Part shown: positions 4 to 17,318 of the stretch, piece after piece
How positions within the stretch are numbered: the stretch's first letter is position 1
Layout of the letters: each line of letters opens with the position of its first letter
Source: a virus
Virus record (IMG/VR): IMGVR_UViG_3300003873_000071
Location: 1 to 22,614 of that record
Direction: 5' to 3' (one strand)
DNA: 22,614 bases
The notes under the pieces: model-generated
What the model saw: only the letters and a program-made list of their open reading frames with translations
The model's database searches: none
What the model was told of the DNA's origin: nothing
Position numbers and translations under genes: made by a program

Positions 4-37
4 ATTATATCATAACTTACATTAAACCGAGTTTAAA
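4..37 (-). promoter_or_regulatory. Phage promoter copy 1 (extended -10 with two TTTAA boxes)
   Basis: On the minus strand this reads TTTAA, 6 nt, TTTAA, 12 nt ending in ATGA, then TATAAT. The same layout with identical spacing occurs six more times in the window. It faces left and should drive the gene beyond the left edge. The distal TTTAA box contains the TAA stop codon of the preceding polymerase-half gene. Confidence 0.8.
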
Positions 38-2048
38 TTAGTGATTTTTTTACTTTATTTGGAAATTTCCACCCTCTATTTTCAACTAATTTATCCAATG
101 AAGCAAATATCGTCTTATTAAACATAGTTTTTTTATCTATTATTTTATCAAAGCCAAATTCTTTTATAAATGGAATACAAGATTTTTCATCTAAATATCC
201 TATTACATTTGAATTAAATGATAAACCAGATTTATTAATATATAAATATTTCATTTTAGTTTTATTTTCTATATATCTATATTTTGTTTCTAACTTATTT
301 TTTTCTATTATTTTATTATATATTAGACTAGCTCTTACATGTATTGGTACTCCTTTATCTGTTAATGAATAATTTAAAAAATCATCAATAGTTTTTTGCT
401 TTTCTTCAAAAAGAACACTTCTTTTATTTTTATACTTAATATAATTTTGTTTAGCTTCTTTTATTCTTTTTTCAGATTGTTTTTCAAATGTAACATTTTT
501 TGGAAATGCTATTTCATTATAATCAAGTGAATAATAATATTTCTTTATATCAGTATAATATTTACTAAAATCATTTTGTGTTTTAGTAAGGATTATTTGT
601 AACCCTTTTTTTAATTCTTTTCTAATTACAGGTGGTATATTTGTTTTTTTCAAATTTAATCCGGCCATTTTAATATAACCCTCATGATAAATTGTACCTT
701 CTGAATCTATTACATTCATAGCATAATTTCTCATTCCATTTACAATACCAGATGATGCTATAATTTCTCTTTCAAGTTCTATTACCTCAGGTCTTTTAAA
801 GTTATATATATTACCAATATAGTCTATATTCTTTTTATTAAATTCTGATATTTTAGGTTCTAATTTATCAGCAATATATTTAGCAGTATTAACATAATCA
901 TTCTTATTTAATTTTTTTTGATTGTGTAATTTATCTATAACATCTTCTAATACTATATATCCTGAATCAGTATCCCAAAGAGCTATTATATTTTTTTTAG
1001 ATAGTCTTTTTTGTAATTTATCCATCCAGTATAAATCTAATAATCTACCTATAGCAGTTATTGATCTAGCTATTTCTAATTTATATAATATAAAATATTT
1101 ATTACCTCCTGCTCCATAAAAACTATTTAATGCGAGTTTTTTTGACATTTGACCTGCATTATAATATACTACTAATTTATTATAATCTTCTATTATTTTT
1201 TCTAACTCTTCAATTGATTTATTTCTATTTTCTTCATCAATTTCATTAATAAATTTGCATTTTTTGTTATTTTTTATATCATGTATATAATCTTTATACA
1301 ATTGGGCTTTTTTAGAATACATTTTCATTTTCTTCTTGTCTGTTTTTCTAGCATTATATATGTCATCCACTAATTTAGATATAAATGTAATATACGAGGT
1401 ATCAAATATATCGCCAGTTGGCGATATATGCATTTTATATTTTTTTAATATAGGAGTGACTTCTTTTTCTATTTCAGCAGTATTATTGATAAGTCTATTT
1501 ATTGTACTTGGAATAGCTTTATTATCATAATAATATTTTTTTACAATATCTTGTATTTCCTTAGGAGCCTTTGAATAAGGTATATGTGAGTCATATGCAT
1601 AATTACAAGCTCTCAGAATACTTGGGTATAGTGAAGCAAAGTCAAATGAAACTACCCATTTATAAAAACCTGGATTAGCTCCCACAGTACCACCTAAAAA
1701 ATCTGGATAGTTATCATATTCAGAATTAGAAGTAAGATTAAAACTACTATCATTTGTAATAGATTCAACTTCTTCAATATCTCCATAAAATTCAGGTGTT
1801 CCATATTTATTCTTATAGCATTCGCAATATATTTTCTGATTCCATGGTGTAACTGTTCCTATTACAGAATCTAAATTACAATTATATAATTTACATAAAG
1901 CTATACTTGTATTTAATATAGATGTTTTCTTATCAATTTTTGCTAAAATATCAACATCCTGTATATTATAATCAATAAATTTTTGATAATTTACAGAATA
2001 TAAAGATTCAAGATTTATCGATTTTTTACTAATTCTTTTTATTTTCAA
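33..2048 (-). CDS. 43B: DNA polymerase, C-terminal part (gp43B: Exo III plus polymerase domain)
   Basis: This is the C-terminal two-thirds of a T4-like family B replicative DNA polymerase. Visible motifs, in order: Exo III YNIQDVD at residues 27-33, motif A DFASLYPSI at 136-144 with the metal-binding Asp136, motif B KKLALNSFYGAGG starting at 303, and motif C DTDS at 359-362. These align well with T4 gp43 from its Exo III onward. Exo I and Exo II are absent here and lie in the separate gene at 4170-5255, so the two products must associate to rebuild a proofreading polymerase. The start is TTG at 2048, 6 nt after AAAAAGG; no in-frame ATG occurs until about residue 206, well past motif A. The promoter at 2066-2099 serves this gene alone. 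The C-terminus ends in KKSLI, which could be a clamp-binding tail, but this is uncertain. Residues 1-11 have no T4 counterpart. Confidence 0.93.
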   Translation of the reverse strand: MKIKRISKKSINLESLYSVNYQKFIDYNIQDVDILAKIDKKTSILNTSIALCKLYNCNLDSVIGTVTPWNQKIYCECYKNKYGTPEFYGDIEEVESITNDSSFNLTSNSEYDNYPDFLGGTVGANPGFYKWVVSFDFASLYPSILRACNYAYDSHIPYSKAPKEIQDIVKKYYYDNKAIPSTINRLINNTAEIEKEVTPILKKYKMHISPTGDIFDTSYITFISKLVDDIYNARKTDKKKMKMYSKKAQLYKDYIHDIKNNKKCKFINEIDEENRNKSIEELEKIIEDYNKLVVYYNAGQMSKKLALNSFYGAGGNKYFILYKLEIARSITAIGRLLDLYWMDKLQKRLSKKNIIALWDTDSGYIVLEDVIDKLHNQKKLNKNDYVNTAKYIADKLEPKISEFNKKNIDYIGNIYNFKRPEVIELEREIIASSGIVNGMRNYAMNVIDSEGTIYHEGYIKMAGLNLKKTNIPPVIRKELKKGLQIILTKTQNDFSKYYTDIKKYYYSLDYNEIAFPKNVTFEKQSEKRIKEAKQNYIKYKNKRSVLFEEKQKTIDDFLNYSLTDKGVPIHVRASLIYNKIIEKNKLETKYRYIENKTKMKYLYINKSGLSFNSNVIGYLDEKSCIPFIKEFGFDKIIDKKTMFNKTIFASLDKLVENRGWKFPNKVKKSLI
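1406..1429. repeat. Perfect 11-bp inverted repeat inside gp43B
   Basis: Arms 1406-1416 and 1419-1429 (ATATATCGCCA and its complement) are separated by only 2 nt. The palindrome has an unusually GC-rich centre for this genome. It lies inside the polymerase coding sequence, around the codons for SPTGDIF. Function unknown. Confidence 0.6.
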
Positions 2049-2065
2049 AACTAACCTTTTTCTTT

Positions 2066-2099
2066 ATTATATCATAACTTCCATTAAACGAAGATTAAA
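2066..2099 (-). promoter_or_regulatory. Phage promoter copy 2, driving gp43B
   Basis: Same TTTAA / TTTAA / ATGATATAAT layout as the other copies. The distal box contains the TAA stop of the GIY-YIG gene (2095-2097). The -10 ends at 2066, giving a leader of about 10 nt that carries AAAAAGG before the TTG start at 2048. It lets the downstream polymerase half be transcribed independently of the endonuclease and of the upstream half. Confidence 0.8.
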
Positions 2100-4056
2100 T
2101 TTTATCTAAATATCCTTCTCCAATACTTTCTAAATAGCACCCAATAGCCCATTCAACGTTATATTTTTTTATACGTATAAATGTTTTAGCGTGGCTTGGA
2201 TTAAATGGATTTTCTTTTGAAGTACACCTAAGATATCCCCATAAATGCATAGTTCTCATATCTATCCCTCTAACTGTTTTTATAATTTCATCTCTTGAAT
2301 TTCTAATATTATATAGAGGTACTTTTCTTTGTGCATAAAATCTACCTTTATTCCATCCTTTAGATAGGTATTCTTCTAATTTATCTTTATCAATGAACTT
2401 ATTTACTTTATTTTTAGTTATCCAAACTCGTCCAACACTGTAAGAAACAAATTCTCCTGATAAATATCTAGGGTCATTTTTATCAATTAATATTTTATAG
2501 TTATTTTTATCTTTAGCTAGTAATTTATTCTTATGAACACCAACTAATTCTCCTGAAATATATCTAGGATCGTTTTTATTAACTTGAAATGTATTTCCAT
2601 CTTTATCTTTTACATTTACTTTACCTTTAATAACAAAATTTAGTTCTCCACTTAAATATCTTGAATCATTTTTAGAAATACATATAACATTTCCATCTTT
2701 ATCTTTAACATTTATTTTACCTTTCATAATTGATACTAACTCTCCTGATAAATATCTAGGGTCATTAGTTGAAACTCTCATTGTATTTCCATCTTTATCT
2801 TTAACAGAAACACATTTTGTACCTAAATGAACTAATTCGCCTGAAAGATATCTAGGGTCATCTTTTTTAACTGAAAATATATTATTATTTTTATCTTTAA
2901 CAAGACATCTACCTTTAGCAACATGAGTTAATTTACCAGAAAGATATCTAGAGTCGTTAGTTGAAACTCTCATTGTATTTCCATTTTTGTCTTTTACTGA
3001 GATTTTATTTTTATGGATACTGACTAATTCTCCTGACAAATATCTTGGATCATCTACATCAACCTGAAATGTATTGCCATCTTTATCTTTAACGACAGTT
3101 TTACCAGTTCCACACGTTACTAATTCGCCTGAAAGATATCTAGGATCGTCTTTTTTAACTGAAAACCATTCACCTTGTTTATTTTTAACAAGATAATGGC
3201 CTTTCATTGCTGAAACTAATTCTCCTGATAAATATCTTGGGTCATCGATATCAACTTTAAAAATCTTTCCATCTTTATCTTTAACAGATACTCTATCTTT
3301 CATGACTGATATAAGTTTACCAGAAAGATATCTTGGATCGTCTACATTAACTTGGAATGTAGACCCATCTTTATCTTTAACAGATACTCTACCTTTCATA
3401 ATTGATACAAGTTCTCCTGATAAATATCTTGGATCATCTACATCAACTTGAAATATATTTCCATCTTTATCTTTAATGATAGTTTTACCTTTCCCAATAA
3501 AAATTAATTCTCCTGATAAATATCTTGGGTCAGTAGTTGAAACTCTCATTGTATTTCCATCTTTATCTTTAACGATAACTTTATTTTTACCAATAAAAAC
3601 TAATTCTCCTGATAAATATCTTGGATCATTAATATCAACCTGTAAAATTTTTCCATTTTTATCTTTAACCATTACTTTGTCTTTCATGATCGATATAAGT
3701 TCTCCTGATAAATATCTTGGGTCATCATTAAAAACTCTTGTAATATTTCCATCTTTATCTTTAACTAAAATACATCCTTTCATGCCACCTCTACCACCTA
3801 AACAAAGATTATACGTGTCTTTCCTTTTTACAAATTCTTCATTGACAAGCTCTTCTTCTTTCTTGTACATTTCCTTTTCTGAATCTAAGGTAGAAAGAAT
3901 TTCTTTCTTGAAATTCTTCATCCCATATTTCTTCTGAGCTCGAAGAATTAATTTCCCTGAGCCCATATACTTATCATTTAGATCTGTAGTGCTATGAGCA
4001 CCTATATAGATCTTGCCATTTGTTAAGTTTGTGATTTTGTAAACTGTGTAGTACAT
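2095..4056 (-). CDS. GIY-YIG (Seg-like) homing endonuclease with fourteen 32-residue repeats
   Basis: Residues 1-90 are a GIY-YIG nuclease domain of the T4 Seg type: YTVYKITN, then GKIYIGAHST with the YIG motif at 17-19, the YMGSGK segment at 30-35, and an acidic helix around 65-75 that should supply the catalytic Glu. Residues 96-543 are fourteen contiguous 32-aa repeats of the form VKDKDGN..V..DDPRYLSGELV..KGK. Residues 544-572 resemble the ENK..ID...LEEYLSKGW.KGR module common at the C-termini of phage homing endonucleases; the repeats look like diverged copies of it. The gene sits exactly between the two halves of gene 43, the classic place for a free-standing homing endonuclease that fractures an essential gene. 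Start ATG is preceded by AGGAG at good spacing. Known Seg proteins are about 200 aa, so this one is roughly three times larger. Activity and target are inferred. Confidence 0.85.
   Translation of the reverse strand: MYYTVYKITNLTNGKIYIGAHSTTDLNDKYMGSGKLILRAQKKYGMKNFKKEILSTLDSEKEMYKKEEELVNEEFVKRKDTYNLCLGGRGGMKGCILVKDKDGNITRVFNDDPRYLSGELISIMKDKVMVKDKNGKILQVDINDPRYLSGELVFIGKNKVIVKDKDGNTMRVSTTDPRYLSGELIFIGKGKTIIKDKDGNIFQVDVDDPRYLSGELVSIMKGRVSVKDKDGSTFQVNVDDPRYLSGKLISVMKDRVSVKDKDGKIFKVDIDDPRYLSGELVSAMKGHYLVKNKQGEWFSVKKDDPRYLSGELVTCGTGKTVVKDKDGNTFQVDVDDPRYLSGELVSIHKNKISVKDKNGNTMRVSTNDSRYLSGKLTHVAKGRCLVKDKNNNIFSVKKDDPRYLSGELVHLGTKCVSVKDKDGNTMRVSTNDPRYLSGELVSIMKGKINVKDKDGNVICISKNDSRYLSGELNFVIKGKVNVKDKDGNTFQVNKNDPRYISGELVGVHKNKLLAKDKNNYKILIDKNDPRYLSGEFVSYSVGRVWITKNKVNKFIDKDKLEEYLSKGWNKGRFYAQRKVPLYNIRNSRDEIIKTVRGIDMRTMHLWGYLRCTSKENPFNPSHAKTFIRIKKYNVEWAIGCYLESIGEGYLDKI
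2428..3771 (-). repeat. Fourteen 96-bp in-frame tandem repeats
   Basis: Exactly 14 units of 96 bp encode residues 96-543 of the endonuclease with no length variation. The core DPRYLSGEL is nearly invariant. Variation is concentrated at the residues following DG (for example TMRVST, TFQVDV, FSVKK) and just after GEL. Some variants recur in non-adjacent units (TMRVST in units 3, 9 and 11; FSVKKDD in units 7 and 10), suggesting shuffling by recombination. Confidence 0.95.
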
Positions 4057-4080
4057 ATAGTACTCCTATAATTTTAAATT

Positions 4081-4161
4081 TATAAGAGTGTCTGTTGGGA
4101 CTATATTAGAAGTGTATCTGAGTCCCAACACAGAGCAGATACACTTCTAATATCTCTTATA
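4081..4161 (-). promoter_or_regulatory. Interlocked inverted-repeat element in the leader of the GIY-YIG gene
   Basis: Three perfect inverted repeats lie in 81 nt. An 8-bp outer pair is 4081-4088 with 4154-4161. A 10-bp pair is 4093-4102 with 4121-4130 (TGTTGGGACT). An 18-bp pair is 4103-4120 with 4136-4153. The last two interlock (A-B-A'-B'), with B filling the loop of A. With almost no linker nucleotides, both stems cannot form in full, so the RNA would be bistable or a partial pseudoknot. It lies between the stop of the upstream polymerase half and the AGGAG of the endonuclease gene, about 14 nt before that site. Role unknown; control of endonuclease expression or a homing-associated structure are possibilities. 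Confidence 0.75.
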
Positions 4162-4169
4162 TATTCTAT

Positions 4170-5255
4170 TTAAACATCTGAAATTTCATCAATTTCTGTT
4201 AACTCTTTAACTTTAATTATTCTCCCATCTTTTAGTTTAATATTATCAGTTTCTTTTAATGTTAAAATTTCACCATTCTCTAGTTCAATCTCATATAGAT
4301 AATCTTCTGAATACTGGAGTTTTCCTGAGATACCTTCAAGTTTAGCAATACTGTCTAATTTATAAGAATCGGGAGTTTTAGAATATCTAAATTTTTCATA
4401 AAAATCGAGTAAATCTATAAAATAATATCCTAAAGGTTCTACGCGCAATAAATCTGATTTAGATTTATTAAAATTATTAGGTTTATTTATTTTATAATAA
4501 TGTGATATTATACTTCCAACTTTATTTAATATTTTATTTTCAATAGTTTTTTCATCTTCTTTTGGTATTTTACCATTTTTTTCTATATAGTTATCTTTTA
4601 TAATTTTAAACAATCTGTTAATTAAAAACGGGTTATCAAATCCAGATGAGTTCCATCCAATTAAAGCATCTACCTGAATTTTATTTACTAATTTAAAAAA
4701 ATCTATAAGCATTGTATATTCAGATAAGCATTTTATATATTCAACATTATTTTTAGATGGTGTATAATCTTTTAATCCAAATACAAAAAATTTATCTAAT
4801 TTATCTGAATATATAGTAATAGAAGTTACTGAAGTACTTCCATCTAATTTTGGAAAACCACCTTTGCCTCTTTTTAATTCACCGCTTGGTAATACTATTG
4901 TACCATTAAATCCAGTTTCAATATCAAAATATGATAAATGTAAATTATTATCTTTATCATTAGAAAATTCTTTAAATCTATATTGATCTTCTGGAGATGC
5001 ATTAGAGTATATTGGTAAATTTAATTCTTTATATCTATTAATTGAATCTCTATATGATTTAATAGAATTATTAACAATTACTTTTAATTTTTTTGATCTA
5101 GTCTTATAATCAAGAAAATCTGAATCTTTTCCATCAGATTCAGTAAAATATTCAAATTTATAATTTTTTACTTCATCAATATGTCTTACACCATCTTTAT
5201 AATATATACTGACTATTTTATTTTTATAAGGAAAAACTCTAACATATGATTTCAT
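4170..5255 (-). CDS. 43A: DNA polymerase, N-terminal part (gp43A: N-terminal and 3'-5' exonuclease domains)
   Basis: This is the N-terminal third of a T4-like family B DNA polymerase. Exo I is DIETGFNG at 111-118 (Asp111, Glu113), and Exo II is GWNSSGFDNPFLINR at 200-214 (Asn202, Asp207). The segment DLLDFYEKFRYSKTP...LDSIA matches the T4 region just after Exo II. Similarity ends at GKLQYSED (residues 311-318), where T4 gp43 continues to Exo III; here Exo III is in the gene at 33-2048. The final 43 residues (319-361) do not match T4 polymerase. They have the pattern YEIELENGEI, IKLKDGRI, KELTEIDEI, resembling the block-B part of Hint/intein folds. The start codon shares one base with the gp44 stop (TAATG), so the two are translationally coupled and share the promoter at 6213-6246. 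Confidence 0.9.
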   Translation of the reverse strand: MKSYVRVFPYKNKIVSIYYKDGVRHIDEVKNYKFEYFTESDGKDSDFLDYKTRSKKLKVIVNNSIKSYRDSINRYKELNLPIYSNASPEDQYRFKEFSNDKDNNLHLSYFDIETGFNGTIVLPSGELKRGKGGFPKLDGSTSVTSITIYSDKLDKFFVFGLKDYTPSKNNVEYIKCLSEYTMLIDFFKLVNKIQVDALIGWNSSGFDNPFLINRLFKIIKDNYIEKNGKIPKEDEKTIENKILNKVGSIISHYYKINKPNNFNKSKSDLLRVEPLGYYFIDLLDFYEKFRYSKTPDSYKLDSIAKLEGISGKLQYSEDYLYEIELENGEILTLKETDNIKLKDGRIIKVKELTEIDEISDV

Positions 5256-6190
5256 TATATTTCTTTCATTTTACATTGTTTCATAATTTCTATAACTAAA
5301 GATAAAAAATTTATTTCTTTTGATATACTTATATTTGTTTGATATGCATATTCTGATAATATAATAATACAATCAGGAATAGATTTAGTATCAATAAATT
5401 TATCAATTATATTATACAAATGTATTATAGCATTATCATAATTAGATATTTCTTGAACAGATTTTCTAATTAATGGAAATGATTTCGATTTCATAGAAGA
5501 TATTAATTCATTATATTTTATCATTTCAGATTCATTTTTTAATACAACTTCATTATTTATAATAGAAGATTGAATTACCATTAATATATTTCTCATATCT
5601 GGAAAATAATTTTTAACTAATATACCTATTTCTTTTTTATCATACGCTATATTTTCTTTATCTAATATTTTTAGAAGTGATTGAAAATATATTTTAATCA
5701 TTTTTAATTTTTCTTTGTCTGAAAATGAAAATGAAATTCCGCCACCTGTTCTTGATAAAAGGGGACTTACAATTTTATCTTTATAATTTGTATCAAATAT
5801 AAATCTAACAGTTTTAGAATATTTTTCTATAATATTTTTTAAAGCATTTTGAGCTGCTGAAGATAATCCATCAGCTTCATTTACAAAACAAATTTTTACT
5901 GGATTACCTACTAATGATGCTCTTGAGGCAAATTTTTCAACCTTATATCTAATTATATCTATAGATGTATCAAGAGAACCATTAATTTCAATAAAGTCAG
6001 CATTGAGCTCTTTTATTATAATTTTTGCTAAGCTTGTTTTTCCACAACCAGCAGGACCATAAAATGTTAAATTTGGAATATCACCTTTTTCTATCATATC
6101 TTTAATAGGATTTATAATACGTGATGGTAATATAATATCATTTAATACTTTAGGTCTATATTTTTCAACTAACAATTTTTCTTCTATCAT
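5255..6190 (-). CDS. 44: Sliding-clamp loader large subunit, AAA+ ATPase (gp44-like)
   Basis: AAA+ clamp-loader ATPase that should load the phage processivity clamp for the gene 43 polymerase. Walker A is GPAGCGKT at 45-52, and Walker B is ICFVNEAD at 100-107. A sensor-1 segment follows (DTNYKDKI, Asn135), then the SRC-type arginine finger LLSRTGG with Arg147. Length (311 aa) matches T4 gp44 (319 aa). Two departures from consensus are visible: the Walker B Asp is Asn104 (NEAD rather than DEAD), and the Cys of the SRC motif is Thr. It is the first gene after the promoter at 6213-6246, has AAAAGGAT as ribosome binding site, and is coupled to gp43A. T4 gene order (44, 62, 43) is echoed, but no gp62-like gene is recognisable between it and the polymerase. 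Confidence 0.9.
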   Translation of the reverse strand: MIEEKLLVEKYRPKVLNDIILPSRIINPIKDMIEKGDIPNLTFYGPAGCGKTSLAKIIIKELNADFIEINGSLDTSIDIIRYKVEKFASRASLVGNPVKICFVNEADGLSSAAQNALKNIIEKYSKTVRFIFDTNYKDKIVSPLLSRTGGGISFSFSDKEKLKMIKIYFQSLLKILDKENIAYDKKEIGILVKNYFPDMRNILMVIQSSIINNEVVLKNESEMIKYNELISSMKSKSFPLIRKSVQEISNYDNAIIHLYNIIDKFIDTKSIPDCIIILSEYAYQTNISISKEINFLSLVIEIMKQCKMKEI

Positions 6191-6212
6191 TGATTTATCC
6201 TTTTAATATTAT

Positions 6213-6246
6213 ATTATATCATAACTTACTTTAAACTAAGATTAAA
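6213..6246 (-). promoter_or_regulatory. Phage promoter copy 3, driving gp44-gp43A
   Basis: Same two TTTAA boxes and ATGATATAAT with identical spacing. The distal box contains the TAA stop (6242-6244) of the 160-aa gene upstream. Expected start is about 7 nt downstream of position 6213, giving a leader of roughly 15 nt before the gp44 ATG. Confidence 0.8.
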
Positions 6247-10526: not shown

Positions 10527-10553
10527 TATATTTCCTTTTTGTTTTAATAATAT

Positions 10554-10587
10554 ATTATATCATAACTTTCATTAAAAGGAGATTAAA
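10554..10587 (-). promoter_or_regulatory. Phage promoter copy 5, driving gp55-gp47-gp46-gp33
   Basis: Minus-strand TTTAA, 6 nt, TTTAA, 12 nt, TATAAT with the TGA extension. The distal box contains the TAA stop (10583-10585) of the 102-aa gene. It precedes four tightly coupled genes, with no further copy until 6776, so it probably transcribes them as one operon. Confidence 0.8.
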
Positions 10588-11293: not shown

Positions 11294-12826
11294 TTAAATG
11301 TAAATTGATTTTTCGTGTATAAAATGTTTTTCTGCACGGTATGTTGCTAATCTATCTAAATAGTGTTTAAATGCAAAATTAGTATGTACTTTTTTAGATT
11401 TTGGATTTTTAACTCTAAAATCATCTACTAAATCATATAAATAAGCAATTTTTTTATTGGCATTCTGTCGTAAAAATCTACCAATAGATTGTATTAAGTT
11501 AATATTAGATTTACCAGCATTTTGAGCTAATATACCTATATGAATATTTTTTATATTAACACCTGTTGAGAATGTTTTGTATGAACAAACAGTAATTACA
11601 CCATTTTCAGATTCAAGGGATTTTCTAATATTCTCTCTAACCTCACCTTTAACACCTCCATCTATATAATATATTTTTGTATTAATATTATTTAATTCAT
11701 TATATTTTTCTAATTCTTCTACTATTTTTTTACCATAGCTTACGTTTCTAAAAAATATTAATGAATTTCCTTTTTTAGCCATATTAATAGCTAATTTAAT
11801 AACAAAATTTATTTTATTAATATCAGAACAAATATATTGTTCTTCTTTAAAATATTTTAATCCTTTAATACTCTTACAAAGTTCAGTATCCCTCCTTTTC
11901 AAATATATAGCTGTAATTTTTATGTCAGTAGCATAACCACGTTCTATTAATTCTCTTGATGATATAATTTTTATTACTTTACCTGTAATTGCTTTAATTT
12001 GATATAAATCTATTTTAGATTGGGGTAAACTGCCTGTTGTACCTATTTTAAATTCAGCATTAACACTTTGTACAGTTTCACCAATCTTTTTTCCTTCTTT
12101 ACCTAAATGAGCTTCATCAATTAATATTGTAGATATATTTTTAGTAATTAATTCACTTGTAATATCTTTATTCATTAGTGACTGCCATGTGCTAATTATA
12201 ATATCAGCATCTAAATTTTTAACTGTACCAGAATATATTCTATTTATTTCAATATCTGTATTTGTATTAGCTTTATACTTTTCTATTCCATAGTCAATAA
12301 AATCAGCATACATCTGTTCAACAAGATTAATAGATGGTACTATTAACAAAGATGAACCTTGATTATATTTTAAATTGTAAAGCATAATAATATATATCAT
12401 TAATGATTTACCTGAAGAAGTTGCTGAAACAAGTATACATTTTTTATTAAATATACCTTCTATTATACCTTTATATTGATAATCTCGGGGTTTAAATGGT
12501 AACTCTGCTTGTTTAATAATAGAATCTATTCTTTCTTTAATCGTATCTTTACTTACATTCTTTTCATCTTCTATATCTAATATATACTCTATTTCATTAT
12601 TATCTAAAAATGATAATAAATCATCTAATAAACCTATACCTAAAAGATTTTTCTTAAAATTAAAAAATTTATATTTACCATCCCAAATACCTAATTTATA
12701 TAGTGGCATAAATCTATAGCCATCTACAAATTCAGAAAAATAATTATATATTTGTTTTTTAAATTCTAATTCATCTAAATTAAAACTTATTTTAACAAAT
12801 GATTCATTAAATTTTGAAATTTTCAT
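11294..12826 (-). CDS. uvsW: UvsW-like superfamily 2 helicase
   Basis: SF2 helicase expected to unwind R-loops and branched DNA during recombination-dependent replication. The N-terminal 100 residues form the small UvsW-type domain (GYRFMPLYKLGIWDGKYKFF). Helicase motifs: Q-like RDYQ at 114-117, Walker A ATSSGKS at 135-141, DEAH at 237-240, TGSL at 264-267, a motif IV/V region (SLIFFRN, TFSTGVNIKNI), and motif VI QSIGRFLRQ near 455. Length (510 aa) is close to T4 UvsW (503). It overlaps the UvsY-like gene by 4 nt (ATGA), which mirrors T4, where uvsW and uvsY are neighbours. Confidence 0.9.
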   Translation of the reverse strand: MKISKFNESFVKISFNLDELEFKKQIYNYFSEFVDGYRFMPLYKLGIWDGKYKFFNFKKNLLGIGLLDDLLSFLDNNEIEYILDIEDEKNVSKDTIKERIDSIIKQAELPFKPRDYQYKGIIEGIFNKKCILVSATSSGKSLMIYIIMLYNLKYNQGSSLLIVPSINLVEQMYADFIDYGIEKYKANTNTDIEINRIYSGTVKNLDADIIISTWQSLMNKDITSELITKNISTILIDEAHLGKEGKKIGETVQSVNAEFKIGTTGSLPQSKIDLYQIKAITGKVIKIISSRELIERGYATDIKITAIYLKRRDTELCKSIKGLKYFKEEQYICSDINKINFVIKLAINMAKKGNSLIFFRNVSYGKKIVEELEKYNELNNINTKIYYIDGGVKGEVRENIRKSLESENGVITVCSYKTFSTGVNIKNIHIGILAQNAGKSNINLIQSIGRFLRQNANKKIAYLYDLVDDFRVKNPKSKKVHTNFAFKHYLDRLATYRAEKHFIHEKSIYI

Positions 12827-13242
12827 ATTATATTTCCTGTAAGTTTAGAATATTCAATTGCATTTTTTAAATTCCAATTCATACTTTCTAACTCTTTAAG
12901 AGTTCTTTCTATGTATTCTATTAAAATTTTATATTGTTGTATATTTTTTTGTATATTGATATATTCTAAATCTGATATTATAAACATTTTAAGTTCATTT
13001 TTTTCTAATTTTATATCAAAATCAACTTTATAATACATATATAATTCTTTATACTTGATATTTAAATCATTCTCAAGCTCGTAATATGCCTTTGTAAATC
13101 GAGCTAATAATTTTGAATATTTATGCATTTTTATTCCAGATGTAAATAAAAAATTAGTTATAGATTCTATATCTTTATTAGTACTTAAATCTTTTTCAGC
13201 TTGATCTTTAAGTTTATCAAAAACAACTTCAAAATCTTCCAT
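12823..13242 (-). CDS. uvsY: UvsY-like recombination mediator
   Basis: At 139 aa it is essentially the size of T4 UvsY (137 aa). UvsY helps load the UvsX recombinase onto gp32-coated single strands. The sequence is helical and follows the UvsY pattern: KYSKLLARF near 40, a segment KYKELYMYYK, an acidic-basic KNELKMFIISDLEY, and QQYKILIEYIERTLKEL then NWNLKNAIEYSKL at the end, where T4 has LQYWGILLDF and FAIKHIQDM. The strongest support is context: it is 4-nt coupled to uvsW. It is first in its operon behind the promoter at 13331-13364, and has an unusually long leader (about 80 nt) with a GC-rich hairpin. Confidence 0.75.
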   Translation of the reverse strand: MEDFEVVFDKLKDQAEKDLSTNKDIESITNFLFTSGIKMHKYSKLLARFTKAYYELENDLNIKYKELYMYYKVDFDIKLEKNELKMFIISDLEYINIQKNIQQYKILIEYIERTLKELESMNWNLKNAIEYSKLTGNII

Positions 13243-13386: not shown

Positions 13387-16300
13387 CTATTTTATATAGG
13401 CACTTCTATTTTCTTGAAATATACTCTTTTCTGAGAAAATATCTAATTTTTTATAAAAATATATAGTATTTTGTTTAATATTATTAGTTTTATTATTTAA
13501 TATTTCTTTTATATTACTATCAATAAATCCGAGTGCAGCTAATATACTATTAACAGTTATTGAAGTTATTGGAGTTGTTGGATTAATTGGATTAACTGGA
13601 TTAACTGGATTAATTGAATTAACTGGATTAACTGGAGTTGTTGGATTAATTAAATTAACTGAATTAAAAGAAAATGGATAATATACATGAAAATTCGATA
13701 CATTGAATTGAAGATTCAATGTATTGGATTTGCATATAAATTCATGAAATGAATTTATATGTTTAGATATTGACAGTACATTAATATTATTAATGTTTTT
13801 ACTGTCAGTGTCTAAAGAGAACTTAAGGGAAGAAATGATATTATTAGTAGGTTGAATTGGTTTACAGCTTAGTGTTCTGAAATCATCAGATAAATCAGCT
13901 GTTTTCAGAACACAAGGACAAGAATGATTGACATCATTCTTATCCTTAGAATTTTTTCTGTCAATAAAATTAAAGAATTCATTAATATCATCTAATTCAA
14001 TATCTAAATTATTATGTTTATTTTCATTATAGAATTTATTTAATATATCATCTTTATTCAAGGATTTATCGGAGTTCAAGGATTTATCGGAGTTAACTGA
14101 ATTATTAGAATTCTTATTAGAATATATTGATACATCATTAAAATATATTATTTCATCATGTATTCTTATCATTTTACTTTCATCATATTTTAAATTTCTG
14201 TTTTTTAATTCATTATTTAATTTGTTAAATTCTAATGTTGTAAATAAATGATTAAGAGATTTGAATGGATATAAAGTATTATTATTAGACTCTAAATAAG
14301 TATTAATTGCATTTAATTCTTTAGATAGATTATTATTAAATTCATTTAATACTAATTCTTTTTTTATAGCTTCTTGTATTTCATTTTTTTCATAATTCTT
14401 AAGTTCAAAATAATTAAATTCTTCTTTTATTAGCTCAAAAAATGCATTATTAGATGTTTTAACACCATTAGATATTAATTTAAGAAAATGAAATTTAGCA
14501 GCTCTTGAAAGAATATATTTTAATGTTTTTTTATCTATATCTACATTAATTCTTTTTATTATATTATTAACTGTATACTTTATTATTTCTTTTCTGTTAT
14601 TATAATATTTAGTTATATAATCTGTACAGAAATCTTTATCTTTGAATTCATCATGTATTATAGTATAAGCTGAATTAGATAGATCAAATGATGTGAAATT
14701 ATCTTTAATTAGTGTTTTTCTAACTCTTCTAGGTAACTGATTAAAAATATAATAAGTTCTATTTGTAAATTTTGATAATGTTGTTTTAATTATCATTTCT
14801 CCTGTTACAGGATTTATTAAAGAACATAATTTTTCTATAGCTTTTTTTTCTCTATAAAGTTTTTTTTCTTTTTTTGTCCATTTAACTTCAGAATGAAAAT
14901 CTATTAATTTAACACTAATAAATAACTTAATTAAATTATACTTATCATTTTTATTCAGTATTTTTTTATTATATAGTTTATTTAATACTAATATAATTTC
15001 TTTACCATATTGAACTTTATCTTTTGTATCTTGGAATTTATTAAATTCTATTATATGCTCTTTTATTTCATTAGGTATTATTCTTTTTATTACTCTAAGA
15101 ATATTACTTAATTCGCTTAATGATTTTTCTTTTAAACTAGCTAATGAATTATTCTTAATAAATTCTATATCATTAATTTTATTCATTGATTTTGTTTTGA
15201 ATTTATTATTTATTACTTTTTTTAATATTATTCTATACCCAGTAAGTACTGTATTTAATAGTTTATTTTTTATTTCTTTTAAATCATTGGGGGTATACTT
15301 AATTTGTTTATTAAAATACTTATTAATGTCATTATCAGTAAAAGTATTTATATTTATATTAAATTTCTCTATAATATAATTTAATTCGTTCTCAGATGCT
15401 GTATCTATATCAGGTAATTCAAAAATATCGTGAATTTTTTTATATTCATAAGTATATCCATATAATTTTTTATTTGTTAATACAGCTAATTCATGTACCA
15501 TTTCATGTTTTTTAATATCATGTAATTTAGATATTAATTCTTTATCTAATTCTAATAAATATTCCATAGCTGTTTTTTTAGATGAATTAGCTGGTCTATA
15601 AAAAATTGTTCCATCAAATTTAGTAGGATAAATTACTTTATTAGAATTATTATTATTTTTTTGAATTTCATTAATAGCATCTATTTTATCTTGATTTGAT
15701 GAATAATTATAATTATATGGATTAGTGTATTTTTCATCATTAATTTCTAAAGATATCTCAAACATATCTTCCATATATTCAGGTGTTAATGGGTTATTCA
15801 TTAATTTTAAAGTATTTACTAAAGAATCTGAAGTATACTGATAATTTATTATATCACACATTCTTACATTAAATTTATAAAAAGGTATTAATTCATCTCT
15901 TTTTTTTGAATTCAATGGATTTAATGAATCTAAGATATTTTCTTTATTATCAGTACATATAATAGGTGCTTCATAATTTATCTTAAAATTATTAATATTA
16001 ATTATTTTGTTCTCAGTACTACTATAAATAAATTTTTTATTTATAGATTTAAGTTTTCTTGATATAATTTTTTGATATTTTTTCTTATACCATTTAAGAT
16101 CTTTTTTATTAGTATATAAATCATATACTATACTTACTATTTTATCTTCAGAATTTTTAACAACAATATTATCTAATACATTATCAGATAATATTTTTGA
16201 TTTAGCAAAAGTACTACAACCTTTACCATCAATAGAATTACCTGTATGTACTTCACTAAAAAGTTTTTTGAATACATTTCTTACTGATTTATTTGATTTA

Positions 16301-16515
16301 TAATATCTTATATTTTTATTTTTATATGAAGTAGATAGAATATAATTGCCATCATATTTAGAAATACTTAATTCAGAATTATATATTTTATAAACATCAA
16401 GCATACCTTTAATACTATTTTTTATGTTCAAAGGATTATTTATTTTACCCTTTAATTCAGATAATATTATATTAATAAAATTTATATTCGGTACGTATGC
16501 ATAGGATGTTTTCAT
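13387..16515 (-). CDS. Putative superfamily A (TV-Pol-like) polymerase / primase-polymerase, 1042 aa
   Basis: No family is obvious at first sight, but three motifs appear in superfamily A polymerase order. Motif A-like is FDLSNSAYTII at 610-620 (Asp611), preceded by LPRRVRKTLIKDNFTS. Motif B/O-helix-like is SRAAKFHFLKLISNG at 670-684 (Arg671, Lys674). Motif C-like is IRIHDEIIYF at 783-792 (His786-Asp787-Glu788), preceded by a helix LFTTLEFNKLNNEL as in Pol A and T7-like enzymes. HDE rather than HDS favours a DNA polymerase over a T7-type RNA polymerase. The described TV-Pol family, thought to combine primase and polymerase activity, is the closest fit I know. The N-terminal 600 residues are lysine- and asparagine-rich and unassigned. 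The tail (800-1042) is low complexity, with NSDKSL and VNP/INP repeats. The ATG is only 5 nt from the -10 box, implying leaderless mRNA. It sits next to uvsY and may act in priming or origin replication. The function is inferred. Confidence 0.6.
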   Translation of the reverse strand: MKTSYAYVPNINFINIILSELKGKINNPLNIKNSIKGMLDVYKIYNSELSISKYDGNYILSTSYKNKNIRYYKSNKSVRNVFKKLFSEVHTGNSIDGKGCSTFAKSKILSDNVLDNIVVKNSEDKIVSIVYDLYTNKKDLKWYKKKYQKIISRKLKSINKKFIYSSTENKIININNFKINYEAPIICTDNKENILDSLNPLNSKKRDELIPFYKFNVRMCDIINYQYTSDSLVNTLKLMNNPLTPEYMEDMFEISLEINDEKYTNPYNYNYSSNQDKIDAINEIQKNNNNSNKVIYPTKFDGTIFYRPANSSKKTAMEYLLELDKELISKLHDIKKHEMVHELAVLTNKKLYGYTYEYKKIHDIFELPDIDTASENELNYIIEKFNININTFTDNDINKYFNKQIKYTPNDLKEIKNKLLNTVLTGYRIILKKVINNKFKTKSMNKINDIEFIKNNSLASLKEKSLSELSNILRVIKRIIPNEIKEHIIEFNKFQDTKDKVQYGKEIILVLNKLYNKKILNKNDKYNLIKLFISVKLIDFHSEVKWTKKEKKLYREKKAIEKLCSLINPVTGEMIIKTTLSKFTNRTYYIFNQLPRRVRKTLIKDNFTSFDLSNSAYTIIHDEFKDKDFCTDYITKYYNNRKEIIKYTVNNIIKRINVDIDKKTLKYILSRAAKFHFLKLISNGVKTSNNAFFELIKEEFNYFELKNYEKNEIQEAIKKELVLNEFNNNLSKELNAINTYLESNNNTLYPFKSLNHLFTTLEFNKLNNELKNRNLKYDESKMIRIHDEIIYFNDVSIYSNKNSNNSVNSDKSLNSDKSLNKDDILNKFYNENKHNNLDIELDDINEFFNFIDRKNSKDKNDVNHSCPCVLKTADLSDDFRTLSCKPIQPTNNIISSLKFSLDTDSKNINNINVLSISKHINSFHEFICKSNTLNLQFNVSNFHVYYPFSFNSVNLINPTTPVNPVNSINPVNPVNPINPTTPITSITVNSILAALGFIDSNIKEILNNKTNNIKQNTIYFYKKLDIFSEKSIFQENRSAYIK
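13571..13660 (-). repeat. Ten 9-nt tandem repeats (iteron-like)
   Basis: Ten consecutive 9-nt units of the GGATTAACT type (variants GGATTAATT, GGAGTTGTT, GAATTAACT, AAATTAACT) encode VNP/INP tripeptides in the tail of the polymerase-like protein. The order GGAGTTGTT then GGATTAATT occurs twice, pointing to a duplicated block. Such short tandem repeats resemble replication iterons, but they also maintain the reading frame. Confidence 0.85.
13698..13947. repeat. Cluster of five perfect or near-perfect hairpins inside the coding region
   Basis: Five inverted repeats lie within 250 bp. Arms: 13698-13707/13715-13724 (10 bp, ATACATTGAA); 13733-13745/13749-13761 (13 bp, 3-nt loop); 13771-13785/13789-13807 (8 + 7 bp around a 4-nt bulge); 13872-13882/13903-13913 (11 bp, GTGTTCTGAAA); and 13914-13928/13933-13947 (14 of 15 pairs, 4-nt loop). 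The last two abut exactly. All are within the open reading frame of the 1042-aa protein. Confidence 0.85.
14057..14092 (-). repeat. 18-nt tandem duplication
   Basis: Two exact copies of an 18-nt unit (starting TTCAAGGATTTA) at 14057-14074 and 14075-14092 encode a duplicated NSDKSL hexapeptide in the low-complexity linker after motif C of the polymerase-like protein. Confidence 0.9.
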
Positions 16516-16520
16516 AGCTT

Positions 16521-16554
16521 ATTATATCATAACTTTCATTAAACGAAGATTAAA
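16521..16554 (-). promoter_or_regulatory. Phage promoter copy 7, leaderless promoter of the 1042-aa gene
   Basis: Same TTTAA, 6 nt, TTTAA, 12 nt, TATAAT layout. The last T of TATAAT is at 16521 and the ATG begins at 16515, so the expected transcription start falls on or next to the start codon. No room for a ribosome binding site remains. It is the rightmost copy of the motif and marks the boundary with the lysis/structural block. Confidence 0.8.
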
Positions 16555-16605: not shown

Positions 16606-16670
16606 TTTACTATTTGTGAGACTTATAGAAGCAAGGCTGATAAACTAATATAAGTCTCACAAATAGTAAA
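16606..16670 (-). other. 20-bp-stem hairpin between lysis block and replication block
   Basis: Arms 16606-16625 and 16651-16670 are perfectly complementary over 20 bp (TTTACTATTTGTGAGACTTA), with a 25-nt loop. Within the loop AAGGCTG (16633-16639) can pair with CAGCCCTT (16587-16594) with one bulged base, giving a loop-to-downstream interaction on the minus-strand RNA. The segment after the stem in the transcribed direction is A-rich rather than T-rich, so it is not a textbook intrinsic terminator. It may protect the 3' end of the endolysin mRNA or cause pausing. The rest of the 209-nt gap 16516-16724 holds only promoter copy 7. Confidence 0.7.
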
Positions 16671-16724
16671 TGTTTATATTTTATTTAAACTTTTGGGAAA
16701 AAACTTGGGATCATTTTAAGATCC

Positions 16725-17318
16725 CTAATACATGATAAAATCTCTTCTAATCCAACCTTTCATATATTTTTTCTTATCCATTATTTCTGTTTTTTTCTTT
16801 TTAGCTCTCATTGATTTAATTCTGCCATAAGATATTAATACTATCATAATTCTTATTAAATCATAAGGGTTATATTTTTTAATATATGATAAAGTTTCTG
16901 GTCCAATGTCACCATCTACAGATATTTTATTTTCAGGAGAATTAAGAACATTTATTGCTTCCTGTAATTTTTCACATACAGTAGGATACCAAATATTAGT
17001 ACCTTCATCAAATAATTTTAATTTAAGATTTTTAAATGTATTTGGTGTTTCTGGAATAATTGAAAAATATTTTTGGTAATTTTCATAATAAAAATCTTTA
17101 ACTTCTTTTATTATACCATCATTATTTTCTAAAGATTTTATTGAATTTCTTTTTTTATAATCATCTATTGTTTTCCATAAATCAAGATTAGGATTATTTT
17201 TTCTTGATATTCCATAGACAGTTTCACCACCTTTATCTGATTTATCATCAGAATAAAATCCTTCATTTCTTTTAATTATATTAAATAATTCACTTTTTAT
17301 TTTATCTATAAGTGTCAT
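16725..17318 (-). CDS. Endolysin, GH108 N-acetylmuramidase with peptidoglycan-binding C-terminus
   Basis: Cuts the glycan backbone of peptidoglycan at lysis. The N-terminus has the GH108 signature IIKRNEGFYSDDKSDKGGETVYGIS, with catalytic Glu19. The second half contains the PG_binding_3-type segment: LQEAINVL, a VDGDIGPETLSYIK stretch, and the closing KKYMKGWIRRDF typical of this family. Length (197 aa) is normal. There is no signal peptide, so it depends on a holin. It starts 1 nt after the stop of the tail-tube-fold gene with a strong AAAGGAGGT site. The holin-like gene is one gene upstream, and spanins are at the start of the same block. Confidence 0.9.
   Translation of the reverse strand: MTLIDKIKSELFNIIKRNEGFYSDDKSDKGGETVYGISRKNNPNLDLWKTIDDYKKRNSIKSLENNDGIIKEVKDFYYENYQKYFSIIPETPNTFKNLKLKLFDEGTNIWYPTVCEKLQEAINVLNSPENKISVDGDIGPETLSYIKKYNPYDLIRIMIVLISYGRIKSMRAKKKKTEIMDKKKYMKGWIRRDFIMY

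Follow-up and report, generated by a model that had tools for sequence, protein, structure and literature searches.

A divergent TV-Pol-like gene in a T4-like phage that also encodes a family B DNA polymerase

The stretch of DNA analyzed here, called the window throughout, is the complete IMG/VR virus record IMGVR_UViG_3300003873_000071, a fragment of 22,614 bases with a GC content of about 20%. On its minus strand, positions 13387-16515 form an intact open reading frame (ORF) of 1042 codons without internal stops, whose product, here named POL, had been likened to TV-Pols in a preliminary description made from the letters alone. We found that the core of POL is a distant relative of the TV-Pols with statistical support from sequence comparison, which supports the family. 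It is probably a divergent TV-Pol-type polymerase of the A superfamily that would act as an extra enzyme, an accessory primase-polymerase, in a phage that also carries a family B polymerase (PolB).

TV-Pols, as described by Iyer, Abhiman and Aravind in 2008 (PMC2579912), have a hairpin with a template-binding arginine, a pair of aspartates in the palm and the motif RxxxK in the fingers. These small polymerases have otherwise been met in plasmids, transposons and virophages and were predicted at that time to be primase-polymerases (PMC2579912). Among them, CcPol-MP of SCCmec is the one member shown biochemically to prime DNA de novo; it primes with deoxyribonucleoside triphosphates (dNTPs) only together with a partner that binds single-stranded DNA, and CcPol prefers dNTPs (PMC7581432; PMC10061031). 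Phages with a regular polymerase and a divergent PolA are already known (divPolA1, and divPolA2 beside PolB; PMC11348598), as is a TV-Pol in one phage group (Ma-LMM01).

Profile comparisons relate POL to the TV-Pols

General family libraries and dedicated profiles gave different answers for POL. The curated libraries Pfam, PHROGs, NCBIfam and PADLOC and the PDB sequences held no significant match, and the Pfam family DNA_pol_A (PF00476) did not match POL at E <= 10, as is likewise the case for typical TV-Pols, whereas TV-Pol profiles did match. To collect these, the TV-Pol of Microcystis phage Ma-LMM01 was taken as MAP_030 by its motifs, an assignment made in this analysis, and MAP_030 was used to reach plasmid TV-Pols; bacterial genomes were then scanned with the TV-Pol motif, giving a dozen true members, one from Thauera, a genus among those listed for TV-Pols by Iyer et al. 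(PMC2579912). None of the profiles included the window protein. A two-sequence TV-Pol alignment was also tried as genome bait and rejected, its patterns falling outside the core.

In hhalign, a profile of four TV-Pols matched full-length POL at the expected position with a score of 47.9 and E 3.7e-5 (probability 71%, or 85% when only the core was compared); TV-Pol profiles matched at residues 570-646. The highest scores of the controls were 25.1 for 300 shuffled sequences, 16.3 for the reversed protein and 19.2 for 11 other window proteins. With a profile of 13 TV-Pols the score was 42.9 (shuffle maximum 27.8). An HMMER profile placed POL first among more than 5,000 decoys at 22.0 bits, the best of 5,000 shuffles reaching 13.1, and a 23-member profile gave 19.9 against 8.1 for the best shuffle. 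A Pol I profile scored 20.1 on POL (shuffle maximum 23.6), a comparison of low power that also misses an undoubted TV-Pol. The assignment as a TV-Pol-like polymerase of the A superfamily was supported by profile comparison with shuffle and decoy controls, by the placement of R586, D611 and D787 in near-invariant TV-Pol columns, and by a weak structural comparison described below.

The POL core keeps the palm residues of TV-Pols

The motifs named in the preliminary description stand exactly where it had put them, with FDLSNSAYTII from residue 610, SRAAKFHFLKLISNG from 670, LFTTLEFNKLNNEL from 757 and IRIHDEIIYF from 783. We aligned POL with 11-16 TV-Pols in three MAFFT alignments (A5, A6 and A7); because no close homologue was found, conservation was assessed only against these distant proteins. 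R586, D611, I619, E762 and D787 are invariant in all three, and N614 and L766 in two. D611 and D787 proved conserved; R671 and K674 lie in a segment of ambiguous register.

From N to C terminus (all positions on the minus strand), residues 586-599, RTYYIFNQLPRRVR (14719-14760), would form the hairpin with the template-contacting R586 and the R599 region; R586 is invariant in A5-A7, and the segment is a beta-hairpin in a low-confidence model. Motif A (residues 610-620, FDLSNSAYTII; 14656-14688) contains the predicted metal-binding D611, together with N614 and I619 in invariant columns, and A616, a small residue, at the steric-gate position. This gate residue is glutamate in Pol I and T7 DNA polymerase and glycine in T7 RNA polymerase; in most TV-Pols of our alignments it is histidine. 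The putative fingers helix, motif B, spans residues 662-685, KKTLKYILSRAAKFHFLKLISNGV (14461-14532). The O-helix motif is present here as R-x-x-K (671-674) rather than as R-x-x-x-K, and it can be read in two registers: MAFFT assigns K662 to the invariant lysine column, while in the register of the preliminary description K674 is the conserved lysine and N683-G684 fall at the Y/N-G position of TV-Pols, where Ma-LMM01 also has NG. The TV-Pol motif HLxxxxExxxL before motif C is represented by HLFTTLEFNKL (residues 756-766; 14218-14250), with E762 and L766 invariant in A7 and H756 and L757 in A6. Motif C, IRIHDEIIYF (residues 783-792; 14140-14169), carries the second predicted metal ligand, D787, invariant in A5-A7 and lying in a strand-turn-strand of the model.

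When the C-terminal half of POL was shuffled 200,000 times, a strict form of the motif chain came up in 3 cases, and the ordered chain R-x-Y...K/R...D-x-x-N...L-x4-E-x3-L...H/Y-D, a pattern written after seeing the data, occurred in 4 of 100,000 shuffles of POL.

The core is flanked by an N-terminal region without a recognisable domain (residues 1-545; 14881-16515; no Pfam match below E 0.1) and by a low-complexity C-terminal tail rich in NP and NPV (residues 801-1042; 13387-14115), in which the coding-strand skew is reversed (-0.21). Tandem Repeats Finder reported 9-bp tandem repeats at 13579-13667, which encode an NPVNPINP-rich stretch of the tail. Pfam found no nuclease domain in residues 1-1042. 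The 1042 open codons at 19% GC, with a codon usage like that of the other window genes (Kullback-Leibler divergence 0.037; range 0.018-0.089), point to a working gene.

Structure prediction and points against the TV-Pol assignment

An AlphaFold model of residues 546-830 computed with 16 TV-Pols shows, in order, a hairpin, the D611 strand, helices, the E762 helix and the D787 strand-turn-strand, the same succession of strands and helices as in the Pol I palm. When this model was compared with the PDB by Foldseek, Pol I-type enzymes took ranks 1-11 and 14 of 15, with nothing below E 1; against viral models the best E was 0.005, and the DNA replication protein of the Zamilon virophage came fifth (E 0.09, probability 0.90). 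The core model is of low confidence, with a Pol I-like topology and with Pol I-type enzymes leading the PDB matches at E >= 1.

Several observations weigh against the proposed assignment. The core model itself reached only a predicted local distance difference test (pLDDT) score of 52.5 and a predicted template modeling score of 0.36, and an earlier model of residues 440-870 was discarded at pLDDT 38.8. Because the input alignment consisted of TV-Pols, including virophage-like ones, the structural matches are supportive but not independent. The profile signal is confined to about 75 residues around motif A, and the C-terminal half of POL alone did not score significantly with the TV-Pol profile. 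The O-helix lacks R-x-x-x-K, and the helix-turn-helix is not resolved in the model. Compared with known TV-Pols, those of bacterial mobile elements included, POL has HDE instead of HDG and NSA instead of NCH. No D5-like helicase, resolvase or integrase occurs among the ORFs of the 22.6-kb window; such an association is typical of TV-Pols but not obligatory, since standalone TV-Pols exist (PMC2579912). Finally, the databases searched contained no close homologue of POL.

The last point rests on several searches. With POL, whole or core, tblastn returned nothing in 50,697 phages and 72,556 plasmids, and a homologue search of IMG/VR with either query found none; the inspected matches in 297 Bacteroidota genomes were noise. 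Scanning IMG/VR with a DNA pattern of the POL motifs gave nothing, nor did gp44 as bait. In 720 kb of T4-like phage sequence, from 86 loci that surround uvsW, TV-Pol matches were no stronger than noise, and TV-Pol queries in the 50,697 phage records matched only the Ma-LMM01 group. The records and papers searched contained no T4-like phage that combines PolB with an enzyme of the TV-Pol type. The viral contigs L075, L080, L095 and L101 encode virophage-like TV-Pols with YDG instead of HDG in motif C.

PolB in the phage and a T4-type replication set in its relatives

The host phage is a deep-branching, 20% GC, T4-like phage with PolB as its replicative enzyme; the closest cultured matches are T4-like, with protein identities of just 28-36%. 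The minus-strand gene order is tail and lysis genes, POL, uvsY, uvsW, a gp55-like sigma factor, gp47, gp46, gp44 and a split PolB, gp43. Library searches confirmed relatives of uvsY, uvsW, gp44, gp46, gp47 and gp55, and the phage also has a relative of a late regulator. As stated in the preliminary description, POL adjoins a uvsY-like recombination mediator (12823-13242, minus strand; phrog_231, 5.2e-15) and a UvsW-like helicase (11294-12826, minus strand; phrog_16, 1.8e-79). The co-resident family B polymerase was likewise borne out, as two ORFs on the minus strand: an N-terminal exonuclease part at 4170-5255 (Pfam DNA_pol_B_exo1, 2.9e-10; phrog_262) and a C-terminal polymerase part at 33-2048 (Pfam DNA_pol_B, 2.2e-12; phrog_262, 2.5e-106). 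The motifs SFDFASLYPS, NSFYG and DTD of the latter are all intact, and PolB is complete though split.

The closest relative, contig L106 (31,369 bases), shares its gene order with the window at protein identities of 50-79% and encodes a gp41-like helicase, a clamp, a single-stranded DNA-binding protein (SSB) and UvsX; a second relative, whose only links are low GC and the promoter motif described below, encodes a Toprim primase (gp61-like). Because the relatives possess these proteins, POL probably comes on top of a standard T4-type replisome and does not replace it, as judged across related genomes rather than within one. POL is not in the three relative contigs, all of them fragments, and L106 stops 155 bases upstream of uvsY, short of the site expected for POL.

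A lineage-specific promoter-like motif precedes POL

An exact copy of a repeated promoter-like motif, TTTAATGNAAGTTATGATATAATA, lies directly before the ATG of POL (16520-16543, minus strand). The window has five copies within three mismatches (chance expectation 0), on the minus strand at 3-26, 2065-2088, 6212-6235, 10553-10576 and 16520-16543, and L106 has copies at 15, 2818, 7302 and 8095. The motif, of the form (AATTTAATCTTCG)TTTAATGNAAGTTATGATATAATA and also written TTTAATGNAAGTTATGNTATAAT, is lineage specific and stands before several replication genes; in the whole of IMG/VR it led to just three contigs, the relatives described above. The 24-bp copy of POL is the same as those before the C-terminal part of PolB and gp55 except at the free base, and it has one mismatch to the gp44 copy. 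Because the ATG is five bases past the -10 box, the POL mRNA may be leaderless or translation may start later (e.g., at M38), which leaves the core unaffected. The T4 late promoter TATAAATA was considered before POL and dismissed, as it was not enriched over shuffles.

The POL upstream region further contains a perfect 22-bp inverted repeat with a 21-nucleotide spacer (16606-16670; RNA fold of the region, z = -5.5), and a predicted terminator-like hairpin behind the lysozyme gene (16707-16725, minus strand) separates that gene from POL.

Comparison with known systems and possible role of POL

POL resembles the TV-Pols of bacterial mobile elements (Thauera, Polaromonas plasmids, Ma-LMM01 MAP_030) in the R-x-Y template arginine hairpin, the D-x-x-N motif A, the E...L before motif C, the HD of motif C and the lack of a nuclease domain. 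It differs from them in its N terminus of about 545 residues and in that the relatives of its phage have a T4-type replication set. The core motif order is also that of the Sputnik/Zamilon virophage TV-Pol, but the Sputnik enzyme carries a D5 helicase fused at its C terminus (PMC2579912) and POL has no helicase fusion. SCCmec CcPol-MP is an analogue by its way of working, an A-family core acting as a DNA primase on a mobile element; however, CcPol is close to Pol I and needs MP, a partner with an oligonucleotide/oligosaccharide-binding fold, and we did not identify an MP-like gene next to POL. The divPolA1 and divPolA2 of Caudoviricetes are similar to POL in being an extra PolA-like protein without a working exonuclease beside a regular polymerase, including PolB (PMC11348598).

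The right-hand core (residues ~546-800) would bind the template through the R586 hairpin and join nucleotides in a two-metal reaction catalysed by D611 and D787, an activity that we consider very likely. By analogy with CcPol-MP, POL would probably start short strands on a single-stranded template and extend them, perhaps aided by its large N-terminal region or by the SSB of the phage. Such priming plus extension is the likeliest use of POL, though the chances for it are about even, and the enzyme would then not be the replicase but an accessory primase-polymerase that takes part in gap filling or recombination-dependent replication. The preliminary description had suggested a second replication or priming system or an unusual RNA polymerase, consequences that remain inferential. 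It seems rather unlikely that the T4-like lineage took up a TV-Pol to provide a second, dedicated system of initiation alongside the gp61-type primase and PolB; possible use of ribonucleoside triphosphates belongs to that proposal because of the alanine at the steric-gate position. If it were true, phages would have a third kind of primase, distinct from both DnaG/gp61 and archaeo-eukaryotic primase, at work in recombination-dependent replication.

Other explanations were weighed against an accessory primase-polymerase. A repair or translesion DNA polymerase of the divPolA2 type beside PolB, without priming, would suit the neighbours uvsY, uvsW, gp46 and gp47, which are recombination and repair genes, and the barbavirus divPolA2, also an extra exonuclease-less PolA next to PolB, has an unrelated N-terminal domain (PMC11348598). 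Its motif A stretch, RMYDLGIQNLPKYERHRLQ..VYDFKAFE, is similar by eye to that of POL. However, POL has no significant similarity to the one representative compared, AUR84708, whose pairwise core score stayed at shuffle level (11.6; 100 shuffles up to 21.5) while TV-Pols score 43-48, and divPolA2 retains the gate glutamate where POL has A616, so we regard this explanation as unlikely. The same alanine, set beside the gate glutamate of Pol I and T7 DNA polymerase and the glycine of T7 RNA polymerase, would fit a divergent single-subunit RNA polymerase, with a function of the T7 or mitochondrial type, that transcribes some phage genes or makes RNA primers; this option was also raised for divPolA2 by Yutin et al. 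in 2024 (PMC11348598). A T7-like RNA polymerase profile (T7, SP6, phiKMV) gave no signal on POL (17.4; shuffle maximum 23.7), although its power is low and it also misses a true TV-Pol. Moreover, the gp55-like sigma factor and late-regulator relative indicate that the phage uses the host RNA polymerase, and CcPol, a TV-Pol, prefers dNTPs (PMC7581432), making an RNA polymerase improbable.

It seems quite improbable that POL has lost polymerase activity and persists as a structural or regulatory protein or a decaying mobile-element remnant. The divergent O-helix, the repeat-rich tail and a strand skew of 0.01, below that of most neighbours, would agree with decay, but the long open frame and neighbour-like codon usage oppose it, as do both catalytic aspartates, the template arginine and the phage promoter copy in front. 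Chance resemblance of motifs in an unrelated AT-rich protein could explain the lack of a match in any family library and the low-complexity composition; two profile methods with shuffle controls, the ordered motifs and the leading place of Pol I-type folds in the structure search make it extremely unlikely. With such a standalone, highly divergent member beside a complete PolB, the TV-Pol family would reach into the T4-like phages. POL would also provide a supernumerary A-type polymerase open to testing and help to ask whether extra polymerases, divPolA1 and divPolA2 included, serve priming, repair or transcription.

Additional observations on the split PolB

The PolB gene is split at the identical point in the window (33-5255) and in L106 (9055-12074). 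The two halves in the window are separated by a gene for a GIY-YIG homing endonuclease, an ORF that is missing from L106. The endonuclease contains about 13 tandem 32-residue repeats (DPRYLSGEL...VKDKDGN; window 2445-3765), and an intergenic 18-bp perfect inverted repeat lies upstream of its gene (4103-4153). The N-terminal half of PolB ends in a conserved intein-like tail (YLYEIELENGE..IKLKDGRII.VK.LTE.DEISD), which is a candidate only. In L183, a contig that shares the promoter motif, an ORF at 4577-5413 (minus strand) opens with VYDIEVENNHTYTVTKNNINVHN, which resembles a C-intein, and continues with SGKG; it lies beside a separate ORF, which makes a split intein possible.

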